A stretch of DNA of 20,330 nucleotides, from positions 1 through 20,330 of IMG/VR virus record IMGVR_UViG_3300032607_000113, one strand, 5' to 3'. The stretch's first letter is position 1. Every line of letters starts with the position of its first letter. Below the pieces are notes generated by a model that saw only the letters and a list, made by a program, of their open reading frames with translations, searched no databases and was not told the DNA's origin. The DNA comes from a virus. Shown one piece after another: positions 66 through 18,718 of this stretch. Made by a program: the position numbers and the translations under genes.

Positions 66-722
66 TTAACCAGTAGGTCCTGTAACAGTGCTTGGTGCTC
101 CAGTTGGTCCAGTAGGACCTGTTACTGTGCTTGGTGCACCAGTAGGTCCTGTTGGACCAGTAGAACCAGTTGGTCCTGTAACTGTGCTTTCTGCACCAGT
201 CGGTCCTGTTGGTCCTATTCCACCAACTTGACCTGTAGGTCCTGTTGGTCCAGTTCCACCAAGAAATCCTGCAGTACCTGATGGACCTGTTGCACCTGTT
301 GGTCCAGTTACTGACGGACCTGTCCAACCTGTAGGTCCTGTATAACCAGTTGGACCAGTAGAACCAATACCATCAACACCAGAAGGACCTGTTGCACCTG
401 TTGGACCTGGAACACCAGTTGGACCAGTAGGTCCAGTGGCTCCAGTTGAACCAACGCCATCAGCACCAGAAGGTCCTGTTGGTCCTTGTGGTCCTGAAAA
501 ACCGCGAAGTCCTGTAGGTCCTGTAACACCTGTAACACCTGTTGAACCAGTTGCTCCAGTAGGTCCTGTTGCACCTGTAGCAGAAGCATTACCTGCTGGA
601 CCTGTATAACCAGTTGGTCCAGTTGGACCTGTATAACCAGTTGGTCCGCGTAGTCCTGAAACTCCAGGAAGAAGTGAGGGGTCAATTTCAGGGTACTTAG
701 GGCTGTTTGGATTAATAGCCAT
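66..722 (-). CDS. collagen-like fibre protein, truncated by an in-frame stop
   Basis: This 218-residue protein has a short non-repetitive N-terminus (about residues 1-20, ending [10 protein letters not shown]) followed by Gly-X-Y triplets to its end, mostly of the GPT/GAT/GYT type. Such repeats form collagen triple helices and, in phages, are typical of tail or head fibres; that role is inferred. Two related longer units are visible ([12 protein letters not shown] near residue 82 and [12 protein letters not shown] near 112), and [11 protein letters not shown] recurs near the end, so the gene grew by internal duplication. The ATG overlaps the stop of the upstream connector-like gene in a TAATG junction, so translation is probably coupled. 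The stop is a TAA where neighbouring repeats have a Tyr codon, and the repeat continues in frame to the window edge. The true gene may be longer, or it may have recently lost its C-terminal trimerisation or receptor-binding part. Confidence 0.9.
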
Positions 723-2365: not shown

Positions 2366-3499
2366 CTAGTTTGTGTAGACCTTGCAAATTGCCTGGTCTG
2401 TGATTACGCCAAGACCCCAAATTGCGTACCATGCAAGAGCGTGTTCACGACCGAAGTCAAGAACTCCACCATCACGTAGTTCAACTGGGAGTGAGATTGC
2501 GTGACCAAATGCGTTGTCACCAATCATGATTGATTCGTAAACTTCAGCAGCGTTTCCTGTTGCTGATGTTAGGTAACCTGCTTCTGCTGTGTAAGAAGCA
2601 GACTCTGGGTTTCCACCTGAACCTGGGGCGGTGTTAGCCTTTACAGGAACAACACCCTGGTCTGCTGGAGCACCAGCAAAACTTGATGTGGTGTATGAAG
2701 CGTTAACTGCCAACTTCTTAACCTGTGTTGTTTCGATGAATACTACGTCGTATAGACGACCGATTTCACCTAGCATGAAGTTTCCTGGAGCAGCGTACTT
2801 TGTAACTTCGATGAACTCTGGGTTCGAACGAATGTCACGTGACTGCTTAGGATGGATGAACTGAACGTATGTCTCACCTAAGCGAGGGATGTTCTTTGAT
2901 GCAAGTGTTAGTGCTGCATCCTTGATAGAGCCAGGTGTCAACTTGTGGTTTCCATCTAGGTCTGAAATTGCTGTTCCAGCAGTTCCTTCAGCGTATGTGT
3001 TGAAGGTTGTTGAGGCTGATAGACCTGAACGGTCATAACCAAATACTGCAGATGTTGCAGCACTTAGTGTGTTGCGAGCCTGTAGGTCTAGGTACTGTGC
3101 CATGTGGCGACCTAGAAGACGGGAAGCAGAAGCCATAACGTCATCGAATGATGCGTTAAGAAGTAGTTCAGAAACTGCTACTGCGTAGCCGTGCTCTGCA
3201 ACTGTAATTGCAATCTGCTCTGCTGTTAGAGCGTTTGTTGTAAGACGTACACCTTCTGTAAGTGGTGCTGGGTCTACAGCAAAGTTCTTGTAACGAAGGA
3301 AGTTCACACGAAGACCTGGTGCTACACCAAGTTCAGTCTTCTTAACTGCGAATTGTTCGAAACGAAGAATTGGCATTGCCTGGAACAAAATCTCTTTTGA
3401 CCAGATGGTTTGAATTGCATTGTTAAGCGTTGTGTTAGTACCGCTATACGCGGTAGGTGCTGCAGCCAACTGGCTGGAGCCTGTAATCGCTGATGCCAT
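2366..3499 (-). CDS. major capsid protein, N4-gp56-like HK97 fold
   Basis: The 377-residue product matches the N4-gp56 family of major capsid proteins: an N-terminal segment with WSKEILFQAMPILRFEQF (about 33-50), a basic stretch followed by the APLTEG loop (about 78-83), a helical region with GRHMAQYLDLQARNTL (about 129-144), and a C-terminal region with ESIMIGDNAFG. The length is usual for this family and no fusion or break is visible. AAAGG lies about eleven bases before the ATG. It sits just after the scaffold-like gene and before a strong terminator, the expected place for the most highly expressed late gene. The protein forms the icosahedral shell. The family assignment comes from remembered motif patterns rather than an alignment. 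Confidence 0.9.
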   Translation of the reverse strand: MASAITGSSQLAAAPTAYSGTNTTLNNAIQTIWSKEILFQAMPILRFEQFAVKKTELGVAPGLRVNFLRYKNFAVDPAPLTEGVRLTTNALTAEQIAITVAEHGYAVAVSELLLNASFDDVMASASRLLGRHMAQYLDLQARNTLSAATSAVFGYDRSGLSASTTFNTYAEGTAGTAISDLDGNHKLTPGSIKDAALTLASKNIPRLGETYVQFIHPKQSRDIRSNPEFIEVTKYAAPGNFMLGEIGRLYDVVFIETTQVKKLAVNASYTTSSFAGAPADQGVVPVKANTAPGSGGNPESASYTAEAGYLTSATGNAAEVYESIMIGDNAFGHAISLPVELRDGGVLDFGREHALAWYAIWGLGVITDQAICKVYTN

Positions 3500-7001: not shown

Positions 7002-8600
7002 CTAATTTTTACTGTAAAAAGGGCTGCTTGTAAGGACAACCTCTGGCATAACTAGGTCTTTTGTGAGGGAGCAAGCAATAGCCAAAGAGTCCACGTAGTC
7101 ATCATGGGCATACGACTCATCAGGAGCAGCCACCATAAAGTTAGGGCCTTTGTACTGAACTTCTGCATCCACCATTTGTTGATAGAAACGCTTCCAGGTT
7201 CTAAGGCGACGTGTTTTTGCATGAGCGGGATAACCAAGCATTTTTCTTTGGATAAGTGCTTGTAGGTGTTTAAATCTAGCCGATTGTTCTGTAGAACTAG
7301 ATGTTATAGGAGCAACCTCTGCTCTTGGTAATAACAACTTTAAACGTTGGGCTACAGCATCTCCAACTCCGTTAGCGTCAACACCAACAGCCAAGACATC
7401 GTAGTTAGCAAGGAAAGCCACAATTTGGTAATACTGCTCTTCCCAATCATCGCCTTGAATTTCTAACCAATTTAAAACGCGATGTTCAAAGTAACCAAAC
7501 TCATCTGGCCTATCCCAGTCAACCCACACAACAGTAACAACTGTCGAGTCTAATTTACGAGCAGGGTCAATACCAACAACAACTGGGGTCTGGTGCCATA
7601 CCTTCACAAGTTCCTGAGAGGTATCTCCTAAGTCATCCATAACTCCAGAGGTAATAAACATTCCTCGCTCAAGGAGCCACTTGCAGCAATACGACATTTG
7701 GAACTCGTCTGAGTCCTCACCAATACGGAGCATCTCTTTCTTAATAAACTTTTGATAATTGTCATTGAACTTAGATACTTCTTTATAATCCCATTGGAAG
7801 TGGTTTTGTCTTGCTGCACGTGTGGTTTGACGACGCTTGTTCAATTGTATAGCACGATAAAAATTGTTCTTACTTGTTGTTGGAGTGCCTGTTTTAACCA
7901 TAGTTCCTGCATAGTATGCAAGCATTGGAGAGATTGATTTAGACACTACAAAGTCATCTGCTTCTTGACACTCGTCAATAACAATCAAATGGAAAGACTT
8001 AGACTCAATCTTTGCACGAGGGTTAGCAGTCATCATTGTGATTGTTGAGCCAGACTTCTTAAGTTTAATCATTCGTGTAACTCCACCAATACGTGCAGCA
8101 GAATCATCAATTTCTGGGTCTCCAAGAATTTCTAATGCACGTTCAGAAGTAAGGCGAGTTACTGTACGACCAAACAAAGTTTCAGCCTGTCCTTCAGTTG
8201 GTGCAAACAATCCAACCCATAATCCATCTTTAAACTTACCAAGCAAATCAGGATACAACTTAGCAAGTCGGGGTAATAAAATCATTAACGTTGCCACTGT
8301 ATCTGCAACAGTTTCAGATTTACCTGACTGACGTGCTGCTAATGCAGTTATCTCTTCACCGTCATTAATAATTACAGACTCAATAACACGACGTGCTAAT
8401 GGCTTTTGATATGGGTGTAAATCATGACCAACAAGAACAACAAGAAAGTCCATAATTTTATCTATGAGTTTTTCAACAAACTGTTGAGAAAGTTCGTCTA
8501 AGTCATCTTCAACTTCAAGAGGTGGCTGTTCTTCATCGTCACTTGCGTAAAGTTCGGGATTAATTTCCTCAAACTTTTCATCGTCAAAATCTATATTCAT
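7002..8600 (-). CDS. terL: terminase large subunit
   Basis: The 532-residue protein is the packaging motor ATPase and nuclease. The ATPase domain shows a Walker A-type loop RQSGKS (residues 90-95) and a Walker B segment LIVIDE (205-210), followed by a coupling-type segment with TGTPTTSKNNFYR (about 238-249). The nuclease domain carries the expected acidic set: Asp345 in VVGIDPA, Asp408 in VGVDANG, and Asp500/Asp501/Asp504 in AHDDYVDSLA. The first 40 residues are an unusually acidic leader. Length and motif spacing are normal, so the gene looks intact. AAGGA precedes the ATG. No small terminase subunit is clearly recognisable; the 76-residue helical protein just upstream is only a positional candidate. 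Confidence 0.97.
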   Translation of the reverse strand: MNIDFDDEKFEEINPELYASDDEEQPPLEVEDDLDELSQQFVEKLIDKIMDFLVVLVGHDLHPYQKPLARRVIESVIINDGEEITALAARQSGKSETVADTVATLMILLPRLAKLYPDLLGKFKDGLWVGLFAPTEGQAETLFGRTVTRLTSERALEILGDPEIDDSAARIGGVTRMIKLKKSGSTITMMTANPRAKIESKSFHLIVIDECQEADDFVVSKSISPMLAYYAGTMVKTGTPTTSKNNFYRAIQLNKRRQTTRAARQNHFQWDYKEVSKFNDNYQKFIKKEMLRIGEDSDEFQMSYCCKWLLERGMFITSGVMDDLGDTSQELVKVWHQTPVVVGIDPARKLDSTVVTVVWVDWDRPDEFGYFEHRVLNWLEIQGDDWEEQYYQIVAFLANYDVLAVGVDANGVGDAVAQRLKLLLPRAEVAPITSSSTEQSARFKHLQALIQRKMLGYPAHAKTRRLRTWKRFYQQMVDAEVQYKGPNFMVAAPDESYAHDDYVDSLAIACSLTKDLVMPEVVLTSSPFYSKN

Positions 8601-14242: not shown

Positions 14243-14791
14243 TTATTTACCGCAGCAACTGCAAACGGCTACTGGAGCAGCAGGTGCTGCACTCTTAAAC
14301 TTTGGACGACCGAAGCCTACAATGGAAATCATCTCTCCAGCCTTGTTCTTCTTAAATCCACGAAGTTTCTTTGAAACCTGTCCGCCATTTCTTTGGCTTC
14401 CTTTTTTATCTGGGCTTGTGTTTCCTTCGATGCACCAAACAGTTCCATCACCGTTATCTTTAATAACAATACCTACGTGAGAAATTCTGTTGACATCGTC
14501 TGATGGGAAATCAAAATACGCAATATCTCCTGGTTCTGGGTCAGCAATATCTGCGTCAATCCAAGAGTTTGCTTTCTTAAACGCTGCTGCTCCACCAGGT
14601 GTGTAAACAGTATTAGGAACCTTTACTCCTGCTTCATTTGCACACCAGTTTACGAAAGAACCGCACCATGGTTGAAAGTTAGCCTTTGTATAAGCACCGT
14701 ACTTTGTTTCATTATCTTTTGGACCTTCAATGGTTCCAAGTTCTGCTTTTGCAACTTCAATAAGTTTTGCAACTGTTCCCATGTCTGCCAT
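14243..14791 (-). CDS. CHAP-domain endolysin
   Basis: The 182-residue protein is a CHAP (NlpC/P60-clan) peptidoglycan hydrolase. The catalytic Cys43 sits in PWCGSFVNWC, the His105 in RISHVGIVI, and a third residue in IEGNTS (Glu122/Asn124). Such enzymes cut peptide cross-links or the amide bond in the cell wall. No separate wall-binding domain or signal peptide is present, so export must rely on a holin. The C-terminus is odd: an Ala/Pro linker followed by CSCCGK, a small Cys cluster that might bind metal, form disulfides or act as a wall anchor. The ATG overlaps the preceding gene's stop (TAATG), linking it to the small membrane protein upstream. Confidence 0.9.
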   Translation of the reverse strand: MADMGTVAKLIEVAKAELGTIEGPKDNETKYGAYTKANFQPWCGSFVNWCANEAGVKVPNTVYTPGGAAAFKKANSWIDADIADPEPGDIAYFDFPSDDVNRISHVGIVIKDNGDGTVWCIEGNTSPDKKGSQRNGGQVSKKLRGFKKNKAGEMISIVGFGRPKFKSAAPAAPVAVCSCCGK

Positions 14792-15343: not shown

Positions 15344-15889
15344 TTATTCGTATTTGTACTGCTCTTTTTTAATAAAGGGTCCAGAGGTGTAGGCATCTTG
15401 TGAAGCAGCAATCTTTAGAGCCTCTAACGGGGTTGCACCAGCCAATATTGCTCCTACTGCGTACTTGGCTCCAGAACCCACTGCGTAGATGCCATCGTCT
15501 CTGAGTCCTACAGACAAATCATCTTCAACGCTAAATAAGGTTCCCGCCACAGAAATTATGAAAGAGAACCTGGATTCACCATCTGTGCTCTCTTGCTCAA
15601 AACTAAAGCCATTATCGGTTAAACACTTACGCAAAGAGGGAACTACCTTTGCAATCATAAAATGATAAGGGTCTCGCAAGTCTCTTGCGGTAGGTGTTGG
15701 TGGGTCCCAGATGTGTTGTGCTACATCGCAAGGCATAGCCTCACCAGAACCAGCAATTAAAAACTCTCCACGCTTTGAAACTTTAACCATCTTAGAGTGG
15801 TTGTACTTACGTCCGTCACTACCAGTGGTTTGGTTATCGCAAAAGATGATGCTTTTTTCGTCATGCTGAACACCAACGATAGTAGTCAT
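15344..15889 (-). CDS. HslV/proteasome-beta-like Ntn hydrolase
   Basis: The 181-residue protein has the pattern of T1-family N-terminal nucleophile peptidases (proteasome beta, HslV). After removal of Met it begins TTIVGVQ, as HslV does, giving Thr1. The next conserved residues follow: Asp17 in IIFCDNQT and Lys32 in HSKMVKV, matching the Thr1/Asp17/Lys33 set, with a one-residue shift in the last. The C-terminal half has YAVGSGAKYAVGAILAG and then LEALKIAASQDAYTSG, the usual HslV/beta-subunit layout. No partner ATPase (HslU, Mpa) is in the window. A self-processing, virion or host-targeting protease is possible; assembly into a ring is inferred from the family. AAGGGA precedes the ATG. It lies in the same operon as the lysis genes. 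Confidence 0.9.
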   Translation of the reverse strand: MTTIVGVQHDEKSIIFCDNQTTGSDGRKYNHSKMVKVSKRGEFLIAGSGEAMPCDVAQHIWDPPTPTARDLRDPYHFMIAKVVPSLRKCLTDNGFSFEQESTDGESRFSFIISVAGTLFSVEDDLSVGLRDDGIYAVGSGAKYAVGAILAGATPLEALKIAASQDAYTSGPFIKKEQYKYE

Positions 15890-16283: not shown

Positions 16284-16490
16284 ATGGCGTTAAAAGACAT
16301 AGATTTTCGCGGAATTCCCACACATGAGTGCCCTGTGTGCCAGTCACGCCTATTCAAGGTCTTTGCGATGTTTGAGGATTACGACATAGCCCTATGGGGC
16401 GTAGATGCTGAGTGTGCCGAATGCAATGCCCTGGTCACGGTTCCATGCCCAGTTGACTCCCCAGAGTACAAGGTGATGAATGAAGATTAA
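16284..16490 (+). CDS. small zinc-ribbon protein, plus strand
   Basis: The 68-residue protein has Cys16-X2-Cys19 in HECPVCQSRLFK and Cys44-X2-Cys47 in DAECAECNALV, plus Cys55, forming a zinc ribbon of the rubredoxin-knuckle type. There is no membrane segment. It is one of the only two genes on this strand and would be read from its own leaderless promoter. Its end overlaps the start of the next gene by 11 bases, so the two form a small operon. Small proteins of this layout are frequent in aquatic phages; function unknown. Confidence 0.75.
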   Translation: MALKDIDFRGIPTHECPVCQSRLFKVFAMFEDYDIALWGVDAECAECNALVTVPCPVDSPEYKVMNED

Positions 16491-16764
16491 TGAGATTCCA
16501 CAAGTTACCCAACAGTTGTTCACGAAGGCTTATTGGACAAAGGTAAACATTATTGAGTTTTGGGCATTTAGTACAAAACTTGTCATCATCATTCCAGGAC
16601 TTCTTTTTGGTATTCAGTTCTGGTGGTTATACCTATTTGCCTTGGCTTCTAGCCTTGCATTAATTTTGACATCAACAATTAAAACACTTCCCACCATTAT
16701 TTACTTTAACGTTGTGTGGTGTTGCTTGGCTACGACTGCAATTTTGAAGCACTTCCTGGGTTAA
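16480..16764 (+). CDS. small membrane protein, plus strand
   Basis: The 94-residue protein is dominated by hydrophobic segments: about 25-48 (FWAFSTKLVIIIPGLLFG), 49-63 and 72-90, giving two or three membrane helices. It has no signal peptide or lipobox. AAGGTGA lies four bases before the ATG. It overlaps the preceding zinc-ribbon gene, so a shared membrane-linked function is plausible. Its 3' end overlaps the end of the oppositely oriented halogenase gene by 35 bases. Family unknown. Confidence 0.7.
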   Translation: MKINEIPQVTQQLFTKAYWTKVNIIEFWAFSTKLVIIIPGLLFGIQFWWLYLFALASSLALILTSTIKTLPTIIYFNVVWCCLATTAILKHFLG

Positions 16765-18226
16765 TTAAAAATTCTGGGTAATCCGTAATGTTATAAAACG
16801 GAGGATAGTCAAAGTAGCGTTTAAAATCTAGCGATGCTTGCTCTAACTTACCGTGACGTATAAGTTCTGCTTTAGCAACTTCTGGGTTAAGTTTTCCGAT
16901 ACCAGCAAGAACCCAATTCCATAATGGTGCTGATGTTCCTAAATAGTTTTGGTAGTACAAATAACTTGGAATATGGGTTTTGCAGTGTTCAAGCAAATCA
17001 GAAACAAAAGGAGTTAACGTTTCTCCTGTTTTAATGTATCTCCAAAACTCTGAGTCTTCCCTACCTCCTTGATAGTGAAGAACAATAAAGTCCTTAAAGT
17101 CATCAAACATGTTATTCATTTTTTTGTTAAATCGTTTTGCAGCCACTGGATTCATCGTGGACTCTTTATCTTCAGTTAAGAACTGAAAGATAAACTCTAA
17201 TAATTGAATGATGGTGGCATGAATAGAGGTAGCCTCTAATGGCTCAAGAAATGAACCAGCAAGACCAGTAGACAAACAGTTCTTAACCCAAAGGTTACCT
17301 GCACGTCCACCCTCAAACTTAATGTTTTTAATGGGGGTAATGCTGTGCCCTAACTTTTTCTCAATCTCTTGCTGTGCTTGGTCTTCAGTAAGGAACTCAC
17401 TGCTATACACGTAACCGTGTCCCATTCGGGTCTGTAAAGGAATACTCCACATCCATCCAGAAGACATAGCGGTTGCTTTTGTAAGTTGCTCAATTTTTTC
17501 GTTTTCGTCCATTTTGTAATCAACAATAAAAGGCATTGCTCTATCAGCAGGTAGGTTCTTTTTGTAGGACACCCATTTAGAACCAAGTTCTTTAGACAGC
17601 ACTCTTGCAAAGCCAGTGCAATCAATAAAGAAGTCTGCTTCTAGCGTTTGCCCATTGCTCAAGTTAAGGCTTTCAATTTCACCTTGTTGATTGAGGTTTA
17701 CCTTGTTAATTACAGCGTCAACTTTTTTAACGCCCTTATCCTCTTTCATAAGAAGATACTCAAAGTATTTTCCTACCTTATGCCCATCAAAGTGAAACCC
17801 AAACTCTCTTAGGGGAGCCTTACCGTGGTAATACCCCAAACCAATAGTAGAAGCCAAAGAGATGTGTTCTGTTGGGTAGTTAATCAAAGTGTGGTGAAAT
17901 TGATAGTCGGGGATGTCTGATGCGGTGTTTGAGCCATTTAAAGGTGCAAAGTAGTCCTTGTTAGTTGGAGACCAACCTTCATGCTTGATTCCGTACTTAA
18001 TAGTGGAGTCTGTGCGAACCATGAACTCTTCAATACTTGCACCGCCTTTTACAAGGCTGTCTGTAATTAAATGATAAAAGAGACCACTAGAGCCTTCACC
18101 AGCACCAATGATGCCAATTTCAGAAGACTCGATAAGGGTTATTTGATGAACGCCTTTATGGGCATTTGCAATTAGATAAGCAGCAACCCAACCCGCAGTT
18201 CCGCCACCAGCAATAACAATTTTCAT
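16730..18226 (-). CDS. flavin-dependent tryptophan-halogenase family protein
   Basis: The 498-residue protein has the full motif set of FAD-dependent halogenases (PrnA/RebH type). GGGTAGW at residues 7-13 is the dinucleotide-binding GxGxxG loop. A Lys at 77 in STIKYGIKHEGW aligns with the catalytic Lys79 of PrnA. WMWSIP at 258-263 is the WxWxIP motif that separates halogenases from monooxygenases. SFLEPLEATSIH at 325-336 matches the EPLES active-site segment. Length is normal, with no frameshift. These enzymes use FADH2, O2 and a halide to make HOX, which a Lys passes on to an aromatic substrate. No flavin reductase is present, so reduced flavin would come from the host. Cyanophages carry relatives, including VirX1, which iodinates small molecules. 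AAGGTG precedes the ATG. The substrate is unknown, and tryptophan should not be assumed. Confidence 0.93.
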   Translation of the reverse strand: MKIVIAGGGTAGWVAAYLIANAHKGVHQITLIESSEIGIIGAGEGSSGLFYHLITDSLVKGGASIEEFMVRTDSTIKYGIKHEGWSPTNKDYFAPLNGSNTASDIPDYQFHHTLINYPTEHISLASTIGLGYYHGKAPLREFGFHFDGHKVGKYFEYLLMKEDKGVKKVDAVINKVNLNQQGEIESLNLSNGQTLEADFFIDCTGFARVLSKELGSKWVSYKKNLPADRAMPFIVDYKMDENEKIEQLTKATAMSSGWMWSIPLQTRMGHGYVYSSEFLTEDQAQQEIEKKLGHSITPIKNIKFEGGRAGNLWVKNCLSTGLAGSFLEPLEATSIHATIIQLLEFIFQFLTEDKESTMNPVAAKRFNKKMNNMFDDFKDFIVLHYQGGREDSEFWRYIKTGETLTPFVSDLLEHCKTHIPSYLYYQNYLGTSAPLWNWVLAGIGKLNPEVAKAELIRHGKLEQASLDFKRYFDYPPFYNITDYPEFLINPGSASKLQS

Positions 18227-18277
18227 AAATACACCTTAACAGAAAAAAGGAACAGTTTTACGACATGCTCAGGTCCC

Positions 18278-18298: not shown

Positions 18299-18718
18299 TT
18301 AAATGCGTCTTCCGCCGTCTCTACCGTTTTTAACGTAAGACTCTTTACTTGGGTCAAACTCAGGGAAACTTCTTTTAATTGCTCTGTGGTTATCTTCTTG
18401 TCCAAGTACTGAGGCTACTTGATGCTTAACTTTAAATTGACTACCAACAAAGATGGTTTTTTCTTCCGTAGGGTGTGGTTTGTATTCATCCATAGGCTCT
18501 ACTTCATAAACGTTACCGTGGTGTACGGGATACTCTCCACCAGGGTTTACACCAAAACCAGTACGTGCTCTCTCATGAGCATGAGCAAGAGCGTAGTTTA
18601 AATCAGTTGTAGCCCACGCTGTGCCGTGTTCTGTTCTCGGTTTAATGATGTCGCCAGGTTTAAGTGTCTCAATAGTCCCGTGGAACATTTGATGCGAGAG
18701 ATTATCGTGAGCACTCAT
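18299..18718 (-). CDS. Arr-like ADP-ribosyltransferase
   Basis: The 139-residue protein matches the small Arr (rifampin ADP-ribosyltransferase) fold. MFHGT at residues 11-15 gives the NAD-binding His13, and LKPGDIIKP follows as in Arr. AWATTDLNYALAHA (34-47) supplies Tyr42, 29 residues further, close to the His19-Tyr49 spacing of the Mycobacterium enzyme. GNVYEVEPMDEY (69-79) contains Asp77/Glu78, candidates for the third residue. After this the sequence departs from Arr, with FVGSQFKVKHQVASVLG and a basic tail. Phage relatives may modify host proteins rather than rifampin; the target is unknown. The ATG overlaps the stop of the upstream zinc-finger gene (ATGA). It lies directly before the halogenase in the transcript. 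Confidence 0.7.
   Translation of the reverse strand: MSAHDNLSHQMFHGTIETLKPGDIIKPRTEHGTAWATTDLNYALAHAHERARTGFGVNPGGEYPVHHGNVYEVEPMDEYKPHPTEEKTIFVGSQFKVKHQVASVLGQEDNHRAIKRSFPEFDPSKESYVKNGRDGGRRI

Follow-up and report, generated by a model that had tools for sequence, protein, structure and literature searches.

The 20,330-base virus record IMGVR_UViG_3300032607_000113, the whole of which is referred to here as the window, includes a gene for a flavin-dependent halogenase (FDH) that overlaps a small gene, mem, for a predicted membrane protein of 94 aa. In viral contigs, mem is a recurrent companion of halogenase genes, which is new and provides a lead on what viral halogenases are for. We favour, with modest confidence, the interpretation that the window encodes a working two-component FDH of the PrnA fold, that it belongs to an actinophage, and that the enzyme is fed with reduced flavin adenine dinucleotide (FADH2) by the host and acts together with mem at or from the host membrane. 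Sequence and model comparisons support the intact catalytic residues, the fold, purifying selection, the type of host, and the adjacency and co-occurrence of the two genes. The original prediction for this stretch described the halogenase and passed over mem, which is its most informative neighbour. If mem is a dedicated integral-membrane partner of an FDH, we know of no other case.

Association of mem with viral halogenase genes

When the genes neighbouring 35 dereplicated viral halogenase loci were clustered, mem was found in nine loci. These include contig G002, where mem matches the window open reading frame (ORF) at 16480-16764 and is arranged relative to the halogenase gene as in the window (tail-to-tail, 35-nt overlap). 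A search using mem alone (alignment A3) recovered 544 related stretches in viral contigs, and the counts below are for the best 80 of the 544. A match to the halogenase hidden Markov model (HMM) at E<=1e-5 was present in 69 of these 80 loci and scored >100 bits in 68, and a halogenase was found in 40 of the 45 loci that have at least 3 kb on both sides. Retaining one locus for each identical mem protein left 60, with the window's own contig and G002 included. A halogenase scoring >100 bits is within the flanks (8 kb at most) in 51 of the 60, namely within 150 nt of mem in 34, within 1.5 kb in eight more and within 8 kb in a further nine. The number rises to 53 if any locus sharing the mem protein is counted, as two of the nine halogenase-less loci share their mem with a halogenase-bearing locus.

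The two genes adjoin in both orientations. With the start of mem chosen so that its length comes closest to 94 aa, each of the 31 adjacent co-directional pairs overlaps (by 14 nt in 22 pairs, 11 nt in six, 4 nt in two and 1 nt in one). As mem start codons were picked by length, the overlap was also scored with the most downstream start that leaves 80 aa (29 of 31 pairs overlap) and with ATG starts only (27 of 31).

Loci recovered with the terminase and the endolysin of the window were used as controls (80 loci each, taken among the matches listed in lists of 600 stretches each, and covering 890 and 966 kb, respectively, versus 960 kb for the mem set). Among the matches listed, a halogenase was found in one of the 80 terminase loci, which is the window's own contig, and in none of the 80 endolysin loci, which also lack mem. 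Of the 21 contigs of the terminase family, G001 (a 34,477-base contig that matches the halogenase, terminase and mem of the window at 100 %), G008 and G012 have the halogenase as well as mem, and the other 18 have neither. Three of these 18 are >80 kb and the others are partial, so absence is weak there; by arithmetic, full agreement for three random placements in 21 contigs has a chance of 1 in 1330. Because the terminase of the window was matched in only five of the 25 longer mem-bearing contigs, many of which are partial (two of the seven >85 kb have it and five do not), the mem-halogenase pair extends beyond a single phage family.

Similar mem proteins are found with very different halogenases. 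G008 keeps the gene order of the window (halogenase, mem, 68-aa, 89-aa, Ntn hydrolase, 149-aa, endolysin and HNH genes), and its mem and endolysin are 81 and 86 % identical to those of the window, while its halogenase, which is flanked by DUF6065-like genes, is 29 % identical. For G012 the values are 79 % for mem and 28 % for the halogenase, and mem overlaps the halogenase gene. Over 55 loci (distinct mem proteins with a halogenase, the nearest halogenase being taken at any distance), pairwise identity has a median of 28.6 % for the halogenases and 68 % for mem, and 591 of the 871 locus pairs with halogenases <35 % identical have mem proteins that are at least 60 % identical. The halogenases of mem loci fall into at least three well-supported separate clades (0.92; 0.999, with VirX1; and 1.0) besides that of the window. 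At the sequence level, mem stays much the same while distant halogenase subtypes alternate beside it. As a substrate recognizer would vary with the halogenase subtype and mem hardly varies, a general service is favoured. The job of mem would probably be to anchor the enzyme, supply halide, contain leaked hypohalous acid or move the product, and probably not to recognize one substrate.

Helices are predicted in mem at residues 21-43, 48-64 and 71-93. Across 67 distinct copies, the near-invariant polar residues are E26, T32, K33, Q46, S57, S58, T66, K68, T69, N77, K90 and H91, which would seem to exceed the needs of a plain anchor. No match to mem was found among PDB sequences at E up to 10, or by tblastn at E up to 0.01 in 50,697 phage records and 72,556 plasmids. 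Pfam matches at E up to 1 (MerC, 0.11; DUF5592, 0.55; SdpI, 0.71) each involved one of 10 members and were dismissed as chance.

A further-reaching version of this interpretation, which is offered only tentatively, is a two-gene membrane halogenation module. Here, a conserved mem would serve interchangeable halogenases independently of their substrates and would move between phages that share no terminase; it might supply halide or handle hypohalous acid at the membrane, with the enzyme repeatedly exchanged.

Several observations weigh against a partnership of mem with the halogenase. Many phage halogenases do without mem, as 26 of the 35 viral halogenase loci lack it in the flank examined, and nine of the 60 mem loci have no halogenase >100 bits in the flank. 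Seven of these nine have a DUF6065-like gene, so the protein served by mem may be DUF6065, either in addition to the halogenase or in its place. Three halogenase-less loci (L196, L210 and L211) are flanked by about 8 kb in each direction, though the contig of L211 has a halogenase elsewhere. The association was measured on the 80 loci nearest to the window's mem, and the 14-nt geometry shared by 22 of the 31 overlaps is inherited, so these counts are not independent. No family was recognized for mem in Pfam or PHROGs, and its putative membrane role is based on hydropathy and predicted helices; its structural model is weak, with a predicted local distance difference test (pLDDT) score of 65.4. 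The control lists also omit relevant contigs: the endolysin list is without G001, G002 and G008 (each with endolysin, halogenase and mem), and the terminase list is without G002 and includes G008 and G012, whose halogenase lies outside the flank. The contrast between the mem and control loci stands, but the control rate is low, not zero.

An alternative that draws on these points is that mem is an unrelated gene of the same hotspot or a partner of DUF6065, and that the halogenase, as the product of an ordinary auxiliary metabolic gene, acts alone on a soluble host metabolite. The two genes are accessory and lie near the lysis region, each occurs without the other, and the 68-aa ORF beside mem is a plain neighbour. 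However, this explanation, which we consider unlikely, does not sit well with the overlap seen in most or all adjacent co-directional pairs (29 to 31 of 31), with adjacency in both orientations, or with the absence of both genes from all 80 endolysin loci listed, 21 of which have DUF6065. It is also at odds with the 20 of 25 longer mem contigs where the terminase of the window was unmatched (many partial, five >85 kb) and with the agreement in presence or absence of halogenase and mem in 21 of 21 contigs.

Two other candidate partners were rejected. A DUF6065-like HMM match is present in 35 of the 60 mem loci, but this protein (phrog_7084) is also in 21 of the 80 endolysin loci without any halogenase, and gave no HMM match in the window's contig or in G002. 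The idea that DUF6065 is a phage counterpart of SapC was also rejected, as their profiles showed no similarity (probability 0.1 %). No paper on DUF6065 was found. The 68-aa ORF was found in five of the 80 mem loci versus 19 of the 80 endolysin loci, none of the latter with a halogenase. Separately, we note that genes for DUF6065-like proteins overlap halogenase genes in cyanophage Syn10 (L164:9075-9863) and in L019, L020, L031, L041, L049 and L158, with phrog_7084 the assignment for the Syn10 and L158 copies. The Syn10 halogenase overlapped in this way is probably VirX1 itself, judging from its length of 530 aa.

Intactness, fold and substrate site of the halogenase

The 498-aa ORF is uninterrupted and fills positions 16730-18226 exactly on the minus strand, and the plus strand there is full of stops. 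The original prediction gave these limits, now found to be the exact ORF limits, without stating the strand. Its description of a complete gene with the GxGxxG loop, the Lys77 equivalent, WxWxIP and an EPLES-like segment intact is confirmed by the motifs, the PF04820 match and the structural model. The protein matches PF04820 (Trp_halogenase; E=1.6e-94, 317.8 bits versus a curated cut-off of 21), PHROG 2928 'tryptophan halogenase' (E=3.8e-101) and 30 distinct PDB sequences, mutants included. The FAD motif, G7-x-G9-x-x-G12, is intact and F326-L-E328-P-L-E331 satisfies the active-site glutamate motif FX[DE]PX[EFL] given in PMC8407142. Residues K77 and E328 are invariant in the 43 viral rows of alignment A1, with E331 nearly so. 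The K and E are present at the corresponding columns in all 81 viral proteins of a second comparison, and K77, E328 and E331 are kept in all 55 halogenases that co-occur with mem. In Thal, the corresponding Lys79 is reported as essential (PMC7948982).

Relative to a 91 % identical halogenase in G002, the non-synonymous (dN) and synonymous (dS) rates are 0.054 and 1.15 (dN/dS about 0.05), with 191 of the 247 nucleotide differences at third positions, indicating purifying selection. A Shine-Dalgarno-like AAGGTG, identified by eye, lies 5 nt before the start codon (18232-18237, minus strand). Judged from its sequence, the gene is intact, far beyond chance, and the FDH is complete and probably active.

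The AlphaFold model of the halogenase (pLDDT 89.9, predicted template modelling score 0.90) is of the PrnA type. In a structural comparison, the PrnA-type proteins gave Z scores from 35.8 (VirX1) to 43.3 (SttH) over 447-479 residues, with PyrH at 42.4, Xcc4156 at 42.0, BrvH at 40.8, PrnA at 40.7 and MibH at 38.2. CndH and Bmp2 were lower (25.8 and 25.5).

FDHs have been divided using the motifs Trp1-Trp4, and group C (BrvH, MibH, VirX1, KrmI and others) is described as lacking Trp4 (PMC8269204). When aligned by eye to Tar14, the window enzyme has GSSGLF in place of Trp1 (ATFSDI), APLNG in place of Trp2 (HPFEQ) and NYLGTSAPL in place of Trp4 (YYHGLPPYS), and Trp4 is not matched. By the published Trp1, Trp2 and Trp4 motifs, the enzyme would not be classed as a free-tryptophan halogenase, and free L-Trp is an unlikely substrate because the Trp4 motif is unmatched. 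In VirX1, the helical lid of Thal is reported as absent, leaving a larger pocket (PMC7948982). Residues 415-432 of the window model are coil, so there is no helical lid there, and the substrate site looks open. As the motifs differ and this coil replaces the lid, we do not file the protein as a tryptophan halogenase.

In a tree, the window enzyme groups with uncultured viral sequences (L002, L003, L049, L005 and L008; support 0.999) and next with those of cyanophages S-PM2 and S-RIM44 (0.84). The tree is a single FastTree run with 83 of 153 sequences (dereplicated by shared 4-mers), in which some deep nodes are poorly supported. The window enzyme is apart from RebH and Tar14 and lies outside the clade of both Syn10 enzymes (VirX1), so a VirX1-type membership is not upheld. 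Halogenases of S-PM2, S-RIM44 and L008 have EPLQ. At least 590 bacterial stretches are related to the halogenase; six relatives, 36 % identical or less, were compared among the matches listed, and closer ones may exist. TonB-receptor, SapC, cupin or DUF6445 genes were seen near the bacterial halogenase genes viewed.

In the mechanism that we favour, a host flavin reductase would provide FADH2 to the phage FDH, which would make hypohalous acid at the flavin. The acid would pass along the tunnel to Lys77, where an electron-rich aromatic group would be halogenated. Because the site looks open and is without the tryptophan-holding motif, free Trp is probably not what the enzyme acts on. A larger compound of the indole or phenol type would be expected, and the halogenated group might belong to a Trp or Tyr residue of a peptide or protein. 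mem would place halogenation at the host membrane or serve it from there. None of the window ORFs scanned (part of the total, with no dedicated model run on the window) is a flavin reductase. PF01613 had no match in any of 10 other mem-bearing contigs and is present in 13 of 14 control genomes, from which we infer that the host supplies the FADH2.

If this is correct, halogenation chemistry would be located at the actinobacterial membrane, and mem, as a conserved partner whose gene usually overlaps that of the enzyme, would be a testable handle on whether the enzyme is recruited, activated or fed by it. The uncultured phage halogenases, partly inside the VirX1 clade and partly outside it, are also a large set for biocatalysis. 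PMC8407142 describes unnatural substrates of VirX1, and two phage papers, one of them PMC10611076, class halogenases as auxiliary metabolic genes, with the role assigned by analogy.

The phage, its host and other viral halogenases

Features of the window, and of tandem halogenase loci in other viral contigs, are listed in Table 1. The best phage-record matches of the terminase are the Streptomyces phages BRock, LuckySocke, Alone3, GiJojo and pSt2308, which also match the capsid protein. Both proteins are thus closest to those of actinobacterial phages, as is expected for a BRock-like actinophage. At least 596 stretches in viral contigs are related to the terminase. A WhiB gene is present in all four terminase-family relatives >80 kb and in five of the 21 contigs overall, as well as in 11 of the 25 longer mem-bearing contigs (six of the seven >85 kb). 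It was not found in the 34-kb contig G001 of the window's phage, which is itself partial. According to the authors of PMC10611076, WhiB is exclusive to actinobacteria and their phages, and among the 14 control genomes only Corynebacterium glutamicum has it. On the terminase and capsid matches to Streptomyces phages and WhiB in relatives, an actinobacterial host is well supported, in agreement with the original prediction, as is the view that the phage is not cyanobacterial-looking. No photosynthesis genes were seen in the window, where no scan aimed at them was made.

Table 1. Positions of the halogenase, mem and other features. Positions are those of the window unless a locus is given.
Feature	Position	Strand	Basis or comment
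Major capsid protein	2366..3499	-	59-61 % identity to Streptomyces phages of BRock type
Large terminase	7002..8600	-	52-53 % identity to Streptomyces phages of BRock type
CHAP-domain endolysin	14243..14791	-	Served as positional control
HslV/proteasome-like N-terminal nucleophile (Ntn) hydrolase	15344..15889	-	phrog_1040; PF00227 below cut-off; synteny
68-aa ORF with paired cysteines	16284..16490	+	Upstream of mem, 11-nt overlap
mem, 94-aa predicted membrane protein	16480..16764	+	Tail-to-tail with halogenase gene, 35-nt overlap
FDH, 498 aa	16730..18226	-	PF04820, PHROG and PDB matches, motifs, model
E328-P-L-E331, active-site glutamate segment	17234..17245	-	Motif reading, alignment
WMWSIP (WxWxIP motif), residues 258-263	17438..17455	-	Motif reading
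Catalytic Lys77 codon (= Lys79 of Thal)	17996..17998	-	Aligned to RebH/Tar14 lysine
EPLG/WRFN tandem copies	L011:6547-8004, L015:6515-7993, L024:6527-7996, L027:6527-7996, L028:6530-7999, L040:6488-7999		

The Ntn hydrolase gene adjoins the endolysin gene and many relatives in this actinophage group have one, making it a flanking marker of the shared locus. Upstream of the halogenase gene is a 139-aa ORF (18299-18718, minus strand) that resembles Arr, a rifampin ADP-ribosyltransferase, at a Pfam score below the cut-off (E=0.0045) and is assigned to phrog_17296, of unknown function; in G002 a small ParB-like protein is encoded at this position. Putative tail genes in the window (66-722) and in L062, which is the rest of G001, encode several collagen-like (GPTGPTG) proteins, one glycosyltransferase and an 834-aa protein that looks fibrinogen-like by eye.

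The statement in the original prediction that known viral halogenases are from marine cyanophages is out of date. Of the 82 phage records with a halogenase match, 71 are named Synechococcus, Cyanophage or Prochlorococcus, and the remainder are named Campylobacter (four), Pelagibacter (two), Marine (two), Bacteriophage (two) and Actinomycetia (one, DSL-LC01). Pelagibacter phage HTVC008M has an annotated halogenase, as does DSL-LC01, a phage assembled from a Dishui Lake metagenome and predicted to infect Actinomycetia (PMC10611076), and many uncultured contigs also have one. A viral halogenase outside the cyanophages is not new as such, although no literature on halogenases of actinobacteriophages besides PMC10611076 was found in a search that left most subscription journals outside its range.

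Many uncultured viral contigs (including L009, L011, L012, L013, L014, L015, L024, L027, L028, L040 and L043) hold tandem sets of two or three halogenase homologues, whose identity to that of the window is about 27-38 %. In six of these (Table 1), one copy, which may be a subunit or a paralogue that does not halogenate, has lost the second glutamate (EPLG) and WxWxIP (WRFN). Genes resembling Fe(II)/2-oxoglutarate oxygenases also recur near phage halogenase genes, e.g. in L061 (HTVC008M) and L166 (P-SSM2), and in up to 14 of the 35 viral loci.

Remaining alternatives and comparison with known systems

It has also to be considered whether the targets of the halogenase are virion proteins, such as tail fibres modified at aromatic residues, with the glycosyltransferase and, in relatives, the Fe(II)/2-oxoglutarate oxygenases as further members of a tailoring set. 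G001 has both collagen-like tail proteins and a glycosyltransferase, collagen, halogenase and glycosyltransferase genes lie within about 7 kb in DSL-LC01, oxygenase-like clusters accompany the halogenase in as many as 14 of the 35 viral loci, and the fold matches include MibH, which halogenates Trp in a lanthipeptide. However, in G001 the collagen and glycosyltransferase genes are >15 kb from the halogenase gene, the window's contig has no 2-oxoglutarate oxygenase HMM match and the membrane partner is left unexplained, and we regard this role as rather improbable.

A flavin monooxygenase that has lost halogenation is improbable. In its favour, and against the preferred interpretation, the tunnel motif Fx.Px.Sx.G is half kept (FLEPLEATS in the window, with F and P retained, S replaced by A and G by S); PMC8407142 allows variants only as a charged residue at the G. 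The family name is also no test of function. However, Lys77, both glutamates and WxWxIP are intact, and the Z scores are 36-43 with PrnA-type FDHs versus 25-26 with CndH and Bmp2.

Finally, that mem is a phage holin or antiholin whose closeness to the halogenase gene reflects only lysis-cassette order is very improbable: it fits the 94-aa length, the three predicted helices and the location near a CHAP endolysin in the window, G002 and G008, but mem is in none of the 80 related-endolysin loci listed (which do not include G001, G002 and G008), has the conserved polar residues E26, K33, K68, N77 and H91, and is by position a poorer holin candidate than the 149-aa ORF, which abuts the endolysin gene and is present in halogenase-less relatives.

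The preferred interpretation, an FDH that acts with mem, can be set beside the known systems. VirX1 of cyanophage Syn10 (PDB 6QGM; PMC8407142) is likewise a phage-encoded FDH of the PrnA fold with the conserved Lys and EPLE, no Trp4 motif and probably an open pocket. It differs in the host of the phage, is 23 % identical to the window enzyme in the structural alignment and has the lowest Z score of the PrnA-type proteins shown. The clade with both Syn10 enzymes excludes the window enzyme and includes those of the mem-bearing contigs G008 and G012, and mem was not found in the 13-kb Syn10 locus. PyrH, SttH, Tar14, RebH and PrnA share the fold (Z about 38-43) and the catalytic residues, but are only 26-30 % identical to the window enzyme, which is without their Trp1, Trp2 and Trp4 motifs. 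BrvH, Xcc4156 and MibH, assigned to group C in PMC8269204, are like the window enzyme in the fold (Z 38-42) and in having no Trp4 motif, and differ in being bacterial.

The DSL-LC01 halogenase (OQ999401), reported to be homologous to tryptophan 7-halogenase (PMC10611076), is likewise an FDH; the phage that encodes it is from a lake, and its predicted host belongs to the Actinomycetia. This enzyme is 24 % identical to that of the window and lies beside collagen and glycosyltransferase genes, and mem had no match in the 31-kb DSL-LC01 locus. No Streptomyces phage record has a halogenase match, unlike the window's phage. Nevertheless, BRock (Borockvirus), LuckySocke and their kin resemble it at the identities for terminase and capsid protein given in Table 1, and in BRock the terminase, portal and capsid genes are in the same order as in the window.

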